This document shows positions 12,290 to 27,191 of a DNA stretch of 64,000 nt, one piece after another. A program made the position numbers and the translations under genes. The DNA comes from Bifidobacterium asteroides. Lineage in GTDB: Bacteria > Actinomycetota > Actinomycetes > Actinomycetales > Bifidobacteriaceae. The stretch lies in the NCBI RefSeq assembly GCF_009683175.1, contig NZ_WKKW01000001.1, positions 372,001 through 436,000 on the forward strand. The letters run 5' to 3'. Each line of letters begins with the position of its first letter. Position 1 is the first letter of the stretch. The notes beneath the pieces were generated by a model. That model was not told the origin of the DNA. It did not search any database and was given only the letters and a program-made list of their open reading frames with translations.

Positions 12290-13101
12290 TGGGCGGCCGG
12301 CATCGACGTGGTACCTTGAAAGGCGGAATCCCGGTCGGATGGCTGGCTGGGCGACGCCCATGGGCGGCTTTGGCATTTGTCGTGCTGGCTGTGACCGTGC
12401 CCTTCCTGCTTGCCACCGCCTCCGCTTCCGCTACCGGCGGGGAGATCTATGCCCGGCCAGCCTATTATGGGTACGTCTGCGTTCCTGACCCACATGCAGC
12501 GGTATTCAACGGCGCCGTACATACCCAATGCCCACAAGGCAAAAGCGCCGTGCCCAGTATGGTGCCCATGGCCGAGCTGGCCTACGCGGCGTTCAGCGCA
12601 TGCGCCTTGGTCATGCTTGCCCCGCTTATGCCCACCTGGGAGCGCCTGAACCTGGCACGCGTCCGTTGGCGAGCCCTGGCTGCCGGGACAGGCGTGCTGA
12701 TGCTGCCGTTTCTTTTCAGCCTCCTCCTTACCATACCTAGCTCCCACGGCGACCCGACCAACGCGCAGTCGCTACTTAGGCTGGCTTCCTGCAACGGCCT
12801 GGTCGACGCATCATTGGTCATGCTCGGCATCGCATTACTGGGCCGTTTCTACGGGCTTGGGCTGGGCGTAGGGCTGGCAGTGATCAATATCGCCAGCCAA
12901 GGTATGCAGGTAGGCATGGGGCTGACGCTTCGTCTATACCCCGAGGACATCAAACCGCCAGTTCCTGGACAGGGGATCTGGCCGGCGATTGCCACAGTCT
13001 TGACGGTCTTCGCCGTCATACTCTGGACGGTCACCGGAGGCCGGGGGAATGATCATGGACAAGAAATAAAAGCCAGCACAGCTGCTTGTGAGAGGTGTTA
13101 G
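12289..13101 (+). CDS. Membrane protein of the ABC cassette
   Basis: A 270-aa protein with five to six hydrophobic segments. The first (WAALAFVVLAVTVPFLLAT) is followed by an extracytoplasmic loop with two Cys (YGYVCVPDPH, HTQCPQGKS). It starts on the last base of the preceding stop codon (TGATG), so translation is coupled. It is probably a partner permease or accessory protein of the transporter; no known family is recognised. It is the last gene of the operon. Confidence 0.6.
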   Translation: MGGRHRRGTLKGGIPVGWLAGRRPWAALAFVVLAVTVPFLLATASASATGGEIYARPAYYGYVCVPDPHAAVFNGAVHTQCPQGKSAVPSMVPMAELAYAAFSACALVMLAPLMPTWERLNLARVRWRALAAGTGVLMLPFLFSLLLTIPSSHGDPTNAQSLLRLASCNGLVDASLVMLGIALLGRFYGLGLGVGLAVINIASQGMQVGMGLTLRLYPEDIKPPVPGQGIWPAIATVLTVFAVILWTVTGGRGNDHGQEIKASTAACERC

Positions 13102-21865: not shown

Positions 21866-22078
21866 CTACTTGGTCCTCTTGCCGTAACGGGCTTCGAACC
21901 GAGCCACGCGACCACCGGTGTCCAGAATCTTCTGCTTGCCGGTGTAGAAGGGGTGGCAGTGCGAGCAGACATCAACCGTCATATGATCGCCGGGAGCGGT
22001 CGAACGGGTGATGAAGGTATTGCCGCACGAGCACGTGACCTCAACGGGATGATAATCGGGATGAATTCCCTGCTTCAT
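21866..22078 (-). CDS. rpmE: 50S ribosomal protein L31
   Basis: A 70-aa protein. It carries the zinc-binding cysteines of the C+ form (CSCG near residue 16 and CSHC near residue 37). This indicates the zinc-loaded housekeeping paralogue rather than the zinc-independent YtiA-type. The start is [10 protein letters not shown], with AGGAG 6 nt upstream. It is monocistronic with a strong terminator. Confidence 0.96.
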
Positions 22079-22234
22079 GGTTACTCCTAGATCCAAGGGC
22101 CCCGGGTCGACCGCCCCTGTGGCGGACGTGAACCGGCAACCGCGTAATAGTCTAGCGCAACCCGGGGAGAATACGACCCCCTTGCGCCACACGCCGAATC
22201 AGCCAACCGGTGTGGCGGACCGCTCGCCCTTTAG

Positions 22235-23059
<825 letters not shown>

Positions 23060-23088
23060 GTTTTTAGCAAGGATTCGCCCGCATATGA

Positions 23089-23129
23089 TGGACCCTCGCC
23101 GATCGGCTCTGTCCGACAGCGAGGGTCCA
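23089..23129. terminator. Bidirectional hairpin between SDR and aminotransferase genes
   Basis: An 11-bp perfect stem, TGGACCCTCGC...GCGAGGGTCCA, between convergent genes. There is no strong U-tract on either side. Confidence 0.6.
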
Positions 23130-23147
23130 CGATCGTTCAGGGATCAT

Positions 23148-24359
23148 TCAGGCGTTGAAGACGTACTTGTCCAGACGGTCCATGGCCTCCTGGACACGGC
23201 TCAAAGGCAGAGCCAGGTTCATGCGGATGGCGCAGGGAGCCTTGAACTGCCGCCCGTCCTGGACGGCCACACCCACATCCCAGGCACGCTTGAGCAGCTG
23301 GTCCAGGTTGAGATCATGGTTCTTGCACCACTGCGTGCAATCAAGGAAGAGCATGTAGGTGCCCTGAGGCTTGGAAAGCTCGACTCCCTCGAAATGCTGC
23401 CGGATGTAATCGTAGGCGTAGTCCACATTCCCGGTCAAAACCTGCCGGAGTTCATCCACCCACTCCTGTCCCTGGGGCTTGTAGGCCCCGATCAGGGCAT
23501 GCATGGACAGCACGTTCATGTCGTTGTAGTGGGCCTTGGACCCCTTGGCCACAATCCTGTCACGCAGATACTTGTTGTAGATGATGTGGTAGGAGCCGAC
23601 CAGCCCGGCCAGGTTGAAGGTCTTGCTGGGTGCATAGAAGGCAGCCGTCCTGTTGCGGGCATCCTCACTGACCGACTGGGTGGGGATGTGCTTGTGGCCC
23701 GACAGGATCAGATCCGACCAGATCTCGTCGGAGATGACCACGCAGTCGTTCTCCTTATATACCTCCATGGCCTTCTCGATCTCCCACTTCTCCCAGACGC
23801 GGCCGCAGGGGTTGTGCGGACTGCAGAAGACCGCCACATGGATGTTGTTCTCCTTGAGCTTGCGGTCCATATCCTCGAAGTCCATCCGCCAGACGCCCTT
23901 ATCGTCCTTCTTCAAGGGGCTGTGCACGATGTGGTAGCCGTTGTTCTCGATGCAGGACGTGAAGCCGACATAGGTAGGGCTGTGGAGCAATACCGCATCG
24001 CCGGGAGCGGCAAAGGCAGTCAAAGTCGAGACAACCCCGCCCAGGACCCCGTTCTCATAGCCGATGTCCCCGGCCGTCAGGCCCTCCACACCATTGCGGG
24101 TGCGCTGCCAGTTGATGATGGCATCGTAGTACTCGTCAGTGGGATTGAAATAGCCGAAGGCCGGATGCTTGGCACGCTCGATGATGGCCTCGGGTATGGT
24201 CGGCACCGTGGGGAAATTCATATCGGCCACCCACATGGGGATGACATCGAAGCCCTCTTTGGGAGGGTCGGGGGCGAATCCAGGCTCGGCGCCCAGGCCG
24301 TCAACCGCGATTGCGTCCTTACCGTGCCTATCCATGATGCTGGTGAAATCGTATGTCAT
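23148..24359 (-). CDS. MalY/PatB-type PLP-dependent aminotransferase / C-S lyase
   Basis: A 403-aa fold-type I PLP enzyme. PatB/MalY hallmarks: IPMWVADMNFPT, HSPTYVGF, FCSPHNPCGRVW, VVISDEIWSDL and APSKTFNLAGL with the Schiff-base lysine. Enzymes of this family cleave cystathionine or cysteine conjugates (beta C-S lyase); some also act as aminotransferases or regulators. The start is MTYDFTSIMDRHG, with GAGAGG 6 nt before it. It is divergent from a YheO/DauR-type regulator that may control it. Confidence 0.85.
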   Translation of the reverse strand: MTYDFTSIMDRHGKDAIAVDGLGAEPGFAPDPPKEGFDVIPMWVADMNFPTVPTIPEAIIERAKHPAFGYFNPTDEYYDAIINWQRTRNGVEGLTAGDIGYENGVLGGVVSTLTAFAAPGDAVLLHSPTYVGFTSCIENNGYHIVHSPLKKDDKGVWRMDFEDMDRKLKENNIHVAVFCSPHNPCGRVWEKWEIEKAMEVYKENDCVVISDEIWSDLILSGHKHIPTQSVSEDARNRTAAFYAPSKTFNLAGLVGSYHIIYNKYLRDRIVAKGSKAHYNDMNVLSMHALIGAYKPQGQEWVDELRQVLTGNVDYAYDYIRQHFEGVELSKPQGTYMLFLDCTQWCKNHDLNLDQLLKRAWDVGVAVQDGRQFKAPCAIRMNLALPLSRVQEAMDRLDKYVFNA

Positions 24360-24499
24360 AGTCAACCTCTCATCCCGTGCAGATGCGCTCGCAGCGACCT
24401 TCCGCCAGTCTACAGCCGTGGGCTCCGTCCGAGTGTCTGCGTCCAATACGAAAGCAGCGATGGTACTATCTGGCCTTAGTCAGAGGATGGGGTGACAAA

Positions 24500-25254
24500 A
24501 TGAGTGCATCAAAGCCCGTTTCATCTTCTCTGCAGCTTTTCGTCCCGCTAGTGGACTTCCTGGGTAAAATCCTCGGACCTAAGACGGAAGTGGTGCTTCA
24601 GAACGTCAGGGATTTCTCACATTCGGTGGTTGCCATCGCCAACGGCAATTTGAGCGGGCGAACCATAGGCAGCCCAGCCACCGACCTGGTCCGGCACATC
24701 TGGCAGAACCACGAATACGACCAGCACAACTATCTGACCCATTACACGAGCTACACCGTCCATGGACACCCTATGGTCTCCTCTACTTTGTTCGTGCGAA
24801 ACTCGAGGCTCGGGTGATCGGCTTTCTCTGCATCAATTTTGACAATTCCGCCTTCCGACAGGCCAGCCAAGAGCTCAGGCGGGCCAGTGCTTATCTGGAT
24901 GCTCTGGGACTGTCCGATCCTATTGCGGAGCTGAACGACGATGCGACCGCCCCGGAAGAATCAGATGTCGAGACCGGGACCGACCAATCGACCCGTGAAG
25001 TCCTCTCCGTCAACGCAGACGAAGTGGTTACGCATAATATCGCCAAGTTCGCCACAGAGCTCGGTATTTCTCCGGCAAGGATGAACCGGCAGGAGCGAAT
25101 GCAGCTTATTTCGCGACTGGACGGGTCAGGGGTCTTTCTGGTCAAGGGCTCAGTGGACACGGTTGCCCGGGCTCTAGGGATCTCCTCCCCCAGCGTCTAC
25201 CGCTATTTGCATACGATACGCAATGCCGCTGTAGGCCCTGATCAGAGCACCTAG
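24500..25254 (+). pseudogene. YheO/DauR-type transcriptional regulator broken by a frameshift
   Basis: Two adjacent reading frames together encode one ~250-aa regulator. The first (from MSASKPVSSSLQ) is the YheO-like PAS domain and stops at TGA 24815-24817. The second continues as VIGFLCINFDNSAF and ends in a DauR-type helix-turn-helix (STVARALGISSPSVYRYLHTI-like). After codon TCG at 24803-24805, a -1 shift gives Ser-Glu-Ala-Arg-Val-Ile-Gly, the expected continuation. A single base deletion near 24806 is therefore the simplest reading. The gene may be inactive, or it may be a sequencing error; no slippery sequence is seen. Confidence 0.75.
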
Positions 25255-25271
25255 GCTCGCCCTGCTCAGCT

Positions 25272-25299
25272 TTGACACACCCCCTCCAGGGTGTATGAT
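25272..25299 (+). promoter_or_regulatory. Strong promoter with operator-like repeats
   Basis: TTGACA (25272-25277), a 16-bp spacer, then TATGAT (25294-25299). The spacer is occupied by a perfect inverted repeat, ACACCC-N6-GGGTGT (25277-25294). A second one, TATACG-N5-CGTATA, lies at 25310-25326, just after the predicted start site. The arrangement looks like a repressible promoter. Confidence 0.6.
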
Positions 25300-25330
25300 T
25301 GAAAACAGATATACGGGGGACGTATACACG

Positions 25331-25387
25331 ATGGACCTACAGGGGTTGAACTATTTTCAGCTCCAGAGGAGATGTACATGCGTATAG
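25331..25387 (+). CDS. Possible leader peptide, 18 aa
   Basis: ATG at 25331 opens MDLQGLNYFQLQRRCTCV and then a stop. GGGGGA lies about 10 nt upstream. A Cys-Thr-Cys near the end recalls leader peptides that sense amino acid supply, but no attenuator gene follows. Its stop overlaps the next small ORF by 10 nt. Confidence 0.25.
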   Translation: MDLQGLNYFQLQRRCTCV

Positions 25388-25461
25388 TTTCCCGGCATAT
25401 GCCGACGGCTCCGACTCGAGCTCGTCCCGTATTCTTTTCCCTGATAAATTCTCATACTTAG
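25378..25461 (+). CDS. Small ORF, 27 aa, with strong ribosome binding site
   Basis: It encodes MRIVSRHMPTAPTRARPVFF plus seven residues. AGAGGAG lies 6 nt before the ATG, better than at many real genes here, and the strong promoter at 25272 drives it. A 12-bp palindrome, CGGCATATGCCG (25393-25404), lies inside it. It is basic, with no recognisable family. It may be a true microprotein, a leader peptide or the 5' remnant of a lost gene. Confidence 0.35.
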   Translation: MRIVSRHMPTAPTRARPVFFSLINSHT

Positions 25462-25581
25462 CGCTTCTGCGGAAACGCTTCCGGATTATTGCGACATGCG
25501 CAGATCTTATGGCTGTCTACGTATGCACGCTTGGGGCACCGAAAAGTGGATATACACCGAAGGTGTCCTGTGATCCGACAT

Positions 25582-25698
25582 AAAAAACGCGCCTAGCTCT
25601 TTTCCCCCGGCTTACATGTGAAGCCATACATATTGCATCGGTGAATCATGGATGCTAGAGCTAGGCGGCGAGAGGATGGCCCCGACAATAGCCGGGGC
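25582..25698 (-). ncRNA. Candidate small structured RNA with its own U-tract
   Basis: On the minus strand, reading 5' to 3', a GCCCCG/CGGGGC hairpin (25698-25679) comes first. Then an 11-bp perfect stem CGCCTAGCTCT/AGAGCTAGGCG (arms 25657-25667 and 25590-25600) encloses two further hairpins, GCATC/GATGC and GGCTT/AAGCC. A T6 run follows (25587-25582), like an intrinsic terminator. No promoter of quality is seen upstream. No known RNA family is recognised. Confidence 0.45.
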
Positions 25699-25824
25699 TG
25701 TCCTTCTACTAAGACTATCAAGAAAGTTCGGGGCACAAAACCCTCGCTATTGCACTGGCAGTCATTGAAGACGTGAACCAGTGTTCAGGCAAAAACCTTG
25801 AGCTCTTAATTCAATCCACTAATA

Positions 25825-25855
25825 AAGCCCCGGAACTTTCAAGGTTCCGGGGCTT
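25825..25855 (-). terminator. Terminator behind the displaced tRNA-Met fragment
   Basis: A 12-bp perfect stem, AAGCCCCGGAAC / GTTCCGGGGCTT, with TATT after it on the minus strand. It probably was the original terminator of tRNA-Met before an element inserted between it and the gene. Confidence 0.75.
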
Positions 25856-25867
25856 GCTTGTGTGGGA

Positions 25868-25904
25868 CCTCAGGGGCTTGAACCCTGGACCGAACGATTA
25901 TGAG
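25868..25904 (-). repeat. Displaced tRNA-Met 3' fragment (att copy)
   Basis: A 37-bp exact copy of part of the tRNA-Met gene at 27118-27191. Identity continues with one mismatch for six more bases on the left (GTGGGA versus GTGGGG). To the right the sequences diverge completely. It is not a functional tRNA because the 5' half is missing. Confidence 0.85.
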
Positions 25905-26395
25905 GCCGTGAGTGGCTTCCCTTTTTTATGTCCTGTAGAGCCCTTCTCTGGGCTTCACTCGAGCATCTGTGCGAACGCTTTAAAGATACGACGGGACACA
26001 ATAAGTGTCAATTTGGTCCGTATATGCCTGAGTGGCAATTCGCTTTTTGTTGGGTCTGCGGTAGTGCACCGAGATCTGGCTCCTAAGTCATGCCGTCTGC
26101 GAGGCGGCTCTTGTCGGTGACATGCCCCACTGCACCCGACCCGCAGGTGATGACAAAACGATACATCAACTGGTATTATTGAGACCTCTAGCCCTCAAAC
26201 AATCTTTGAGAAGCCTTCTGCTGGCTACCGTCAAACGATTGCCAAATATGGCACGGATCGTCGTATTCGCAGTCTAGTCACACCTTGTGTTCGCTACACC
26301 TGAACAATTCAGGAAACATCCAGAGAACTATGCAATTCGGCCGCTCCTGATAATCTGCTGATAATCACTGAAGACGCAAGGAGAGGACGAATGAA
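25905..26395 (+). promoter_or_regulatory. Repeat-rich non-coding control region of the element
   Basis: No gene is seen. Three perfect inverted repeats lie within 120 bp: CTCAAA-N5-TTTGAG (26194-26210), TGCCA-AATA-TGGCA (26240-26253) and CCTGAA-CAA-TTCAGG (26299-26313). A direct repeat, CTGATAATC, occurs at 26347-26355 and 26358-26366 (11-bp period). These precede the first cargo gene and could be operators or recombinase/replication sites. Confidence 0.4.
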
Positions 26396-26746
26396 ATGGG
26401 ACTATTCGGCGGAAATCAGGATGCGCAGGAGCGTTATTACAATCTCCCGGTCAGCACTGTGTACAACGGGATGAAAGGGATGCTAGAAAAGTCAAGACGC
26501 TTCGCCCTTAAGCACGCCGACGACCTGTCCTGCACCTGCACTTTCAACACCGGCATCAGCATGACCACATGGGGCGAGAAGATGACAGCAGTCGTCTCCC
26601 CCAGCGGAGACGGAGCGAAAGTCAACGTCACTGTGGCGGCGAAGATTGGTGGCAACACCGTATGGCAGGGTTCCAAGAATGCGAAGAACCTCACGACCTT
26701 CTTTGATAGCCTTTCCGAGTACTTGCAGTCCCATATGGGAAAGTAG
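26396..26746 (+). CDS. Hypothetical protein of the tRNA-Met element (116 aa)
   Basis: A small protein with no signal peptide or membrane segment. It begins MGLFGGNQDAQERYY and continues with a predicted alternating alpha/beta pattern. Short hallmarks are TWGEKMTAVVSP and the lysine-rich end KNAKNLTTFFDSL. I recall small proteins with a MGLFG start and a WGE motif in other bacteria, but cannot name a function. AAGGAGAGG about 9 nt upstream supports the start. An out-of-frame ATG 5 nt earlier is ignored. It lies 2 nt before the next gene, so the two form an operon. Confidence 0.65.
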   Translation: MGLFGGNQDAQERYYNLPVSTVYNGMKGMLEKSRRFALKHADDLSCTCTFNTGISMTTWGEKMTAVVSPSGDGAKVNVTVAAKIGGNTVWQGSKNAKNLTTFFDSLSEYLQSHMGK

Positions 26747-26748
26747 CC

Positions 26749-26949
26749 ATGAAGATCGGCATGCGCACCCCAAGCCCCAGACGCTCATTCAAGGCGCGAA
26801 CCACGGGCAAGTGGAAGCGGCAGGCGAGAAAGGCCCTCATCCCCGGATACGGGAGGAAGGGCATGGGGTGGATACGGAACCCCGGGAAAGCCGCCTACAA
26901 CAAGATCTACCGGAAGACGACGTTCAGCATCTGGGACCTGTTCGTGTAA
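26749..26949 (+). CDS. Small very basic hypothetical protein of the tRNA-Met element (66 aa)
   Basis: It begins MKIGMRTPSPRRSFKARTTG and is rich in Lys/Arg, with a GRKGMGWIRNPGKAAYNKIY stretch in the middle. From memory, short proteins of this pattern (KxGMGxIxxPKKAxYNKxY) are common in prophages and integrative elements of Firmicutes and bifidobacteria. Their function is unknown. It starts 2 nt after the previous stop, and a terminator follows the gene. High charge suggests nucleic-acid binding; that is inference. Confidence 0.65.
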   Translation: MKIGMRTPSPRRSFKARTTGKWKRQARKALIPGYGRKGMGWIRNPGKAAYNKIYRKTTFSIWDLFV

Positions 26950-26962
26950 GGCAAAATATGAA

Positions 26963-26984
26963 CCCCACTCCGGCGGGGCTTTTT
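26963..26984 (+). terminator. Terminator of the two-gene cargo operon
   Basis: The stem CCCC...GGGG (compact, GC-rich) is followed by CT5 on the plus strand, 14 nt after the 66-aa gene. Confidence 0.75.
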
Positions 26985-27022
26985 CTATGCCCGCCCGACC
27001 GTACCGGTTTTCCCGTGCAACA

Positions 27023-27044
27023 TAGTATACATTTAGTATACATT
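27023..27044. repeat. Tandem 11-bp repeat near the attachment site
   Basis: TAGTATACATT occurs twice in direct tandem, each copy with a palindromic GTATAC core, 79 bp from the tRNA repeat. Position and helical-turn period fit arm-type integrase or excisionase binding sites. Confidence 0.5.
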
Positions 27045-27077
27045 TTGAGCTCGAACCCCATCCCCGTAAGCATGAGA

Positions 27078-27110
27078 AAACCCCCGCAGGCTTTGTGCCT
27101 GTAGGGGTTT
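27078..27110 (-). terminator. Terminator of tRNA-Met (carried by the element)
   Basis: The stem AAACCCC-ACAGGC / GCCTGC-GGGGTTT, with minor mismatch, is followed by TTTTCTC on the minus strand, right after the tRNA 3' end. Confidence 0.8.
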
Positions 27111-27117
27111 CGTTTGG

Positions 27118-27191
27118 TGGGGCCTCAGGGGCTTGAACCCTGGACCGAACGATTATGAGTCGTTTGCTCTAACCGACTGAGCTAAGGCCCC
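27118..27191 (-). tRNA. tRNA-Met (anticodon CAT)
   Basis: A 74-nt cloverleaf on the minus strand: acceptor GGGGCCT/AGGCCCC, D arm AGCTCAGTCGGTTAGAGC, anticodon loop CTCATAA, T loop GGTTCAAGCC, discriminator A and encoded CCA (27115-27117). CAT may mean elongator Met or lysidine-modified Ile2; elongator Met is the more likely call. Its 3' half is the integration site of the neighbouring element. Confidence 0.92.

Follow-up and report, generated by a model that had tools for sequence, protein, structure and literature searches.

A 1.25-kb element at the tRNA-Met gene of Bifidobacterium asteroides is very probably a prophage remnant

A tRNA-Met gene of Bifidobacterium asteroides is accompanied by a second copy of its own 3' half, and the two enclose an element of 1.25 kb with two small open reading frames, ORF1 and ORF2. 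Is this a very small satellite that moves with a borrowed integrase? Or is it what remains of a larger island, and if so, of what kind? The first-pass annotation, made from the letters of the 64,000-nucleotide stretch analysed here (the window), put both readings forward. In earlier work, bifidobacterial prophages have reportedly been located in tRNA-Met genes. Here we compare the locus with those of related genomes and phages, and we conclude that the element is very probably a grounded prophage remnant.

The intact tRNA-Met (CAT) gene lies on the minus strand at 27115-27191 (ARAGORN; the tRNA is also confirmed by Rfam). A segment of 56 nt is present twice, 1,255 bp apart and 89% identical overall, and its last 37 bases are identical between 25868-25904 and 27123-27159, so the exact repeat of the tRNA 3' half that the first-pass annotation saw bounding the region is real. 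This 37-bp core covers tRNA-Met from the start of its 7-nt anticodon loop to the 3' end. A chance origin of the second copy is negligible. At up to three mismatches the 37-mer was matched in 89 of 189 genomes of the family, with two copies in the host (G000) and exactly one in each of the 26 other genomes of the genus. Because each of those 26 has a single core, the objection that the repeat is a common, dispersed tRNA relic was rejected.

The outer copy (25868-25904, minus strand, exact over 37 bp) is the original chromosomal 3' half, now displaced, and forms the attL core; from 25860 to 25904 it is identical to the empty site at 44 of 45 bases. Beyond it, at 25825-25855, a 15-bp inverted repeat forms the chromosomal terminator of the original tRNA-Met, which now lies outside the element, and a variant of this hairpin is found directly 3' of tRNA-Met in the empty sites of G004, G007, G011, G018, G019 and G022. 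The intact gene is attR, and its functional 3' half came with the element and encodes the CCA end. On this side a second, phage-borne terminator, a hairpin at about 27078-27110 recognised by eye and by comparison among relatives, now ends the tRNA-Met transcript. Similar hairpins are present in G000, G003, G008, G009, G013, G014 and G020, and a different one in the six empty sites. The two terminators noted in the first pass are both present, one for each copy. Farther out, between an HTH gene and tRNA-Met, the stretch 25585-25682 contains an inverted repeat, GCCTAGCTC..GAGCTAGGC (by eye), and is 76% conserved in G013 and G014; it may be a small RNA or a long hairpin, and it matched no Rfam family above the gathering score.

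The flank of tRNA-Met was compared in 14 of the 26 other genomes of the genus, and the classes given here leave aside G002, G005, G006, G010, G012, G015, G016, G021 and G023-G026 (12 genomes). Six sites are empty, five hold larger occupants without a tyrosine integrase, two are scars and one falls at a contig break (G017). In the empty sites the chromosomal flank joins the tRNA at the point equivalent to 25904/27117 of the window. The window sequence 22000-25904 is a single match of 92-94% in five of them (G004, G007, G011, G018 and G019), and in G022 it is split into three matches of 91.7, 73.2 and 87.6%, the last one extending to the tRNA. The check for an empty site proposed in the first pass thus succeeded in 6 of 14 relatives, and the 1.25 kb is not common to all. 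The same check was to look for larger elements with the same core; larger occupants do exist in 5 of the 14, but a second core at three or fewer mismatches was found in none of the 26 genomes, and no intact prophage was seen at tRNA-Met.

A 243-aa ORF, which matched no Pfam family in G020, is present at tRNA-Met in G003 and G020, and no core was detected in these two occupants. The occupant in G009 contains a 634-aa ORF in which repeat and cell-wall-anchor domains were recognised. In G008 there are two tandem units with a degenerate core between them (L031 17288-17309), and in G001 a degenerate core (L045 13801-13834) is followed by ORF2 together with a pair of type I restriction-modification genes (PF02384, PF01420). 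The G001 occupant is about 4.8 kb (L045 13801-18697) and contains no tyrosine integrase. The scars in G013 and G014 retain the phage-type terminator and the CCA end, and their cargo is almost absent. No PF00589 match was found inside the eight occupied or scar tRNA-Met loci, the window included.

Preservation is graded, from the 37-bp core of G000 through the degenerate cores of G008, G009 and G001 to the scars of G013 and G014. When 16 loci were searched for degenerate cores, four beat all 200 shuffles (the window, stub 2 of G008, tRNA-Met of G009, and G001) and 12 did not; the cores of tRNA-Lys and tRNA-Arg in G009 come from searches separate from this shuffle test. The CCA is encoded, in a 77-nt tRNA gene, in G000, G003, G008, G009, G013, G014 and G020, and all six empty loci have a 75-nt gene without it. 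It is also encoded (by eye) in G010, G012, G015 and G021, which are outside the 14 compared. As a perfect marker of occupation the CCA fails, since G001 is occupied without it. We place an integration at tRNA-Met on four grounds: the 37-bp core that was displaced, the empty sites, the terminator of phage type and the CCA that the gene encodes. The core pair and the empty sites agree with the earlier claim that this integration restored the 3' half of the gene.

What, then, was integrated? Sequence comparison identifies the cargo as the right-hand end of a family of temperate phages. It begins on the plus strand with a region that is non-coding as far as seen (25905-26395) and corresponds to a phage leader upstream of the last phage gene or genes. 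Positions 25905-26382 are 79% identical to G000:C1:163317-163796, within an intact prophage at tRNA-Arg of the same genome, where the leader homologue sits just before the last gene (SHOCT domain). Positions 26005-26386 are 78% identical to 12458-12837 of BigBern1 (MT006237.1), a Bifidobacterium asteroides phage isolate from the honeybee gut in which the leader homologue is followed by an Ltp-type gene and then by the integrase gene. The leader is also 77% identical to that of a stub at tRNA-Lys in G008.

Within the leader, a promoter-like site on the plus strand (26150-26179; ATGACA-18-TATTAT with TG before the second hexamer, 10/12 in a consensus scan) is mostly conserved in an alignment of four phage and stub copies. 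The alignment also contains a palindrome, CTCAAACAATCTTTGAG, at 26194-26210, a possible operator, which is perfect in the G008 tRNA-Lys stub as well, reads GTCAAA..TTTGAC in G009 and is imperfect in the G000 prophage and BigBern1. This promoter-like site and 17-bp palindrome are largely conserved in the leaders of phages with different last genes. Together, at 26150-26210, they may act as a promoter under repressor control that these phages share while the cargo behind it is exchanged. The idea that the left part contains a structured RNA was considered and rejected, the tRNA being the sole Rfam match above the gathering score, and folding of 26180-26400 was barely better than that of shuffled sequences (z -1.4; 20 of 200 as good). 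An exact search of IMG/VR with a conserved 28-bp pattern from the leader found nothing.

ORF1 (26396-26746, plus strand, 116 aa) and ORF2 (26749-26949, plus strand, 66 aa) correspond to the penultimate and the last gene of the parental phage type. They are the last two genes of IMGVR_UViG_2684622918_000001, a prophage record of 35,988 bp (about 36 kb) that terminates at the ORF2 stop. Amino acid identity to this record is 92% for ORF1 and 88% (57 of 65 residues) for ORF2, and window positions 26347-26949 are 86% identical to it. A terminator-like hairpin follows ORF2 at 26961-26980 (listed on the minus strand; on the plus strand the stem is followed by TTTTTC).

ORF1 matched no Pfam family above the cut-off and no NCBIfam family, reached only E 0.016 in PADLOC and found nothing below E 0.17 among the sequences of solved structures; it had no match in the phages collection and none that was confirmed in the genome contigs collection. 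Alignment searches found a single locus in IMG/VR, the prophage just described, and seven loci in genomes, from Bifidobacterium, Propionibacterium and Ruminococcus. In Bifidobacterium sp. B-bin1 the ORF1 relative directly adjoins tRNA-Arg(CCG) (L120 5001-5457) and also neighbours an argS-like gene (named by eye). The protein is predicted as strand-helix-four strands-helix (mean pLDDT 77.8, from 9 sequences). Helix-grip proteins are the closest to this model in the PDB, with 41 matches at E <= 0.001, the best of them E 8.6e-05 at 12% identity, and identities of 7-17% among the matches listed. The predicted helix-grip-like fold of ORF1 is a hint of its fold, not of its function.

ORF2 aligns with the first 65 residues of phage proteins that are longer than itself. 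It belongs with four PHROG families (E 7e-28 to 2e-31), reached no Pfam cut-off and had no match in PADLOC. With tblastn it was found in 87 phage records, and 5 of the 40 listed are labelled as HIRAN domain protein. In G018, G024 and G025 its homologues lie within 2 kb of an integrase. The dN/dS is 0.086 for ORF1 against its phage relative (28.5 synonymous and 11.5 non-synonymous differences) and 0.087 to 0.357 for 45 ORF2 pairs, and 7 of the 7 remnant copies of ORF2 that were compared are open. These values fit selection, short of proof; because they mix phage and stub history, they are no proof of selection after the deletion. ORF2 also decays, since 6 of its 20 places in the genus are broken or partial: it has stops in G017 and is partial in G006, twice in G014 and once each in G007 and G020.

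The host's own prophage at tRNA-Arg(ACG) is intact-looking and 39.8 kb long (G000:C1:125042-164940; L084 7543 to L046 11441). Its attL (G000:C1:125042-125102) leads into the gene of a 496-aa integrase, the tRNA-Arg gene (164864-164940) forms attR, and the proteins identified in between are terminase, portal, major head, tape measure and tail proteins. An Ltp-lipoprotein stub lies just outside this attL (L084 6528-7403), a case of tandem accretion. The integrase of IMGVR_UViG_2684622918_000001 begins at base 1 and shares 90% identity with the one in the tRNA-Arg prophage, so this phage probably uses tRNA-Arg too. Since the leader matches one phage and ORF1-ORF2 another, the parent was presumably a mosaic. 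Comparison with records of 36-41 kb places the leader in the same end region of BigBern1, ORF1-ORF2 in that of IMG/VR record G189, and ORF2 with the arm repeats in that of IMG/VR record G190; each of the three has an integrase gene. An exact search of IMG/VR with a 34-bp core pattern found nothing.

Repeats beside att cores are usually arm-type sites of tyrosine integrases. Two direct repeats of TAGTATACATT on the plus strand at 27023-27044 are probably the right-arm (P') sites of the integrase; they are the only two matches at one or fewer mismatches in 64 kb, where 0.08 would be expected, and left arm repeats are absent from the window at the same threshold. Prophage record G190 (41,169 bp, two PF00589 matches) has a direct-repeat pair of TAGTATACAT(A/T) near both ends, the left pair 20 bp before the first integrase gene (L114 114-135) and the right pair before the right terminator (L111 10700-10721). 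With the pair at both ends of G190 and only on the right in the window, the left arm appears to have been lost with the integrase. Direct repeats are likewise listed as putative integrase-binding sites for Oenococcus prophages in PMC8074189.

Could the element still move, as a 1.25-kb circle served by the integrase of a co-resident phage? In favour of this, 37 bp are intact in each of the two cores and the right arm pair is undamaged; the unit is also small and compact, and other tRNA genes have remnants with the same features. The host also has two phage-type integrase genes, that of the tRNA-Arg prophage and one of 356 aa on contig C4 (G000:C4:190035-191105; L096 10036-11106), which lies near a guaA-like gene (by eye). 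We nevertheless give such a satellite very little credence, mainly because the left arm is missing. The arm motif of the tRNA-Arg prophage differs from the TAGTATACATT pair, there is no TAGTATACAT in the 20 kb surrounding the C4 gene, and the host genome has no other exact arm pair, only one copy with two mismatches at a tRNA-Lys scar. A borrowed integrase is thus an unlikely mobiliser. The cargo, moreover, is the end of full-length phages, and other occupants vary in content and scars exist, as decay predicts. The tRNA-Lys scar itself (G000:C1:732549-732710; L125 10550 onward) consists of the degenerate arm pair and a phage-type terminator, with no cargo between these and a LacI-type gene (named by eye).

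The element has no integrase ORF and only two small genes, as the first-pass annotation had stated, and none of the integrase, regulation or replication families that a PICI-like satellite would bring was matched. Packaging and helper-interference families are absent from the Pfam, PHROG, NCBIfam and PADLOC matches, and neither ORF carries a named function. As for a remnant, the element lies between attL and attR of a known integration-site type, and its content is homologous to the same end of intact phages, no single one of which holds all of it. Of the two readings first proposed, the remnant of a larger island is upheld by cargo that is a phage end, and the satellite is not, with the left arm sites missing. 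There is another way in which such cargo could have arrived: an old scar at tRNA-Met might have acquired it by homologous recombination with an infecting phage, swapping everything from leader to right arm. Similar right terminators with different cargo in G000, G003, G008, G009 and G020, and a leader common to phages with different last genes, are what such a swap would leave. In the window, however, the leader adjoins an attL core that is almost perfect and has the outer terminator beside it. This points to a single integration that made an attL of its own, and we regard the swap as highly unlikely.

In the preferred reading the element is a grounded prophage remnant. Its source would be a temperate phage of the bee-bifidobacteria type that integrated into the anticodon loop/3' half of tRNA-Met, with an integrase that would have used TAGTATACATT arm sites flanking attP on both sides; a related prophage has such sites at both ends. 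A deletion, probably a single event, would then have brought the leader of the last phage operon right up to the attL core and removed the left arm and the integrase, replication, structural and repressor genes. The remaining unit would comprise the leader with its promoter-like site, ORF1, ORF2, the terminator, the right arm and the tRNA, and the loss would lock it in place.

The left edge of the leader would then be the deletion junction; homology to the parent-like prophage begins at 25905, the first base past the core. At tRNA-Met of G008, the core of unit 2 leads into sequence that aligns with HTH genes; in one tRNA-Lys unit of G009 the core leads into a metallopeptidase-like gene (DUF6782, below cut-off in relatives). 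The phage integrase itself could have made such deletions, with att-like secondary sites of the immunity region as partners for the attL core, and would thereby repeatedly cut prophages down to their protective end; this is a mechanism for the remnant reading, not an alternative to it. Tyrosine integrases exchange strands at the anticodon stem-loop, and in the three stubs whose phage homology starts at the core (the window, stub 2 at tRNA-Met of G008, and tRNA-Lys of G009) the junction falls within this structure or at its edge. Parent-like sequence and core are identical at 6 of 10 bases at the window junction (top 1.5% of positions), 6 of 10 at that of G008 stub 2 (top 1.9%; 5 of 10 and 7.4% against a second relative) and 8 of 11 at that of G009 tRNA-Lys (top 0.09%), but the parents compared are relatives, not ancestors, and two of the registers were set by eye. 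Core-edge junctions are, however, present in only three of the six remnant cores found. The first phage match lies 330 bp beyond the core at tRNA-Arg of G009, and no phage match starts at the core in G001, where the first is ORF2 about 1.1 kb on, or at tRNA-Met of G009, where it is the right arm about 2.8 kb on. The shared 5-bp stretches (CAGCT, ATGAG) fit ordinary microhomology deletion too. Integrase-driven exchange and microhomology deletion are both possible at this junction, and we consider deletion by the integrase conceivable but rather doubtful. A bolder version, which seems unlikely to us, is that bee-gut bifidobacteria make minimal immunity stubs of their prophages: a one-step exchange by the integrase, between attL and att-like sites beside the immunity region, would excise the phage body and spare a promoter, the exclusion genes, the right arm and the tRNA, with ORF1 as a new phage-exclusion factor under selection.

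Units that share the leader, ORF2, the right arm or the terminator with the element in the window are also found at tRNA-Lys or tRNA-Arg genes in G000, G007, G008, G009, G014, G018 and G020. Those in G007, G008, G009, G018 and G020 include remnants without a nearby integrase, and some units exceed 1.25 kb and contain other phage DNA (G007, G018, G020 tRNA-Arg). A PF00589 search of G007, G009 and G020 found two integrases in each, probably XerC/XerD-like to judge by position and score, and no more than a single short fragment besides. In BigBern1, as in the stubs L047 and L084, Ltp-type genes (PF07553) occupy the slot in which the window has ORF1-ORF2. The Ltp prototype of S. thermophilus phages blocks phage DNA injection (PMC3952083); unlike the superinfection-exclusion lipoproteins described there, ORF1 and ORF2 are not Ltp, and neither has a convincing match to a known defence family. 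As the retained genes occupy the slot of Ltp-type exclusion genes and other genes in sister phages, protection against related phages would be their likeliest benefit.

How does the element compare with described systems? Prophages grounded by loss of att function or of the recombinase, and then trimmed, are described in PMC6379469, together with the hypothesis that their hosts retain immunity without the risk of induction. Like the prophages described there the element would be locked in place; unlike them it keeps only one terminal operon. Remnants in Oenococcus oeni are reported at 5.2-19.5 kb, some with Sie or restriction-modification genes (PMC8074189); they share the location at tRNA genes, whereas the element in the window is 1.25 kb and its left arm is gone. 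By the definitions of CIMEs and tandem accretion in PMC5704250, the element resembles a CIME in that attL and attR cores flank it and there is no recombinase, and tandem accretion is seen at tRNA-Met of G008, tRNA-Lys of G009 and tRNA-Arg of G000. It differs in its derivation, from tailed-phage ends and not from an ICE or IME. A CIME keeps attL and attR and loses its genes for integration and transfer; here both cores are kept and the left arm sites are missing, so that mobilisation of the element as a CIME is doubtful. Of actinobacterial prophages, 47% are classed as remnants in PMC10023795, and intact prophages are reported in 3 of 12 B. asteroides isolates in PMC10259446.

We class the element as a very small prophage remnant, one of a series and ordinary in kind. 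To the specialist the decay series and the core-edge junctions are its most noteworthy aspects. Across sibling species one tRNA gene is found empty, with a remnant and its attL, with a remnant and no detectable attL, and as a bare scar, and with such a graded series one can ask which part of a prophage persists longest, and for what reason. The phage-borne terminator, the encoded CCA end and the leftover integrase arm repeats are small traces of an old integration that might escape a prophage caller. Should ORF1 and ORF2 block phages, these stubs would be small domesticated defence units in a gut symbiont.
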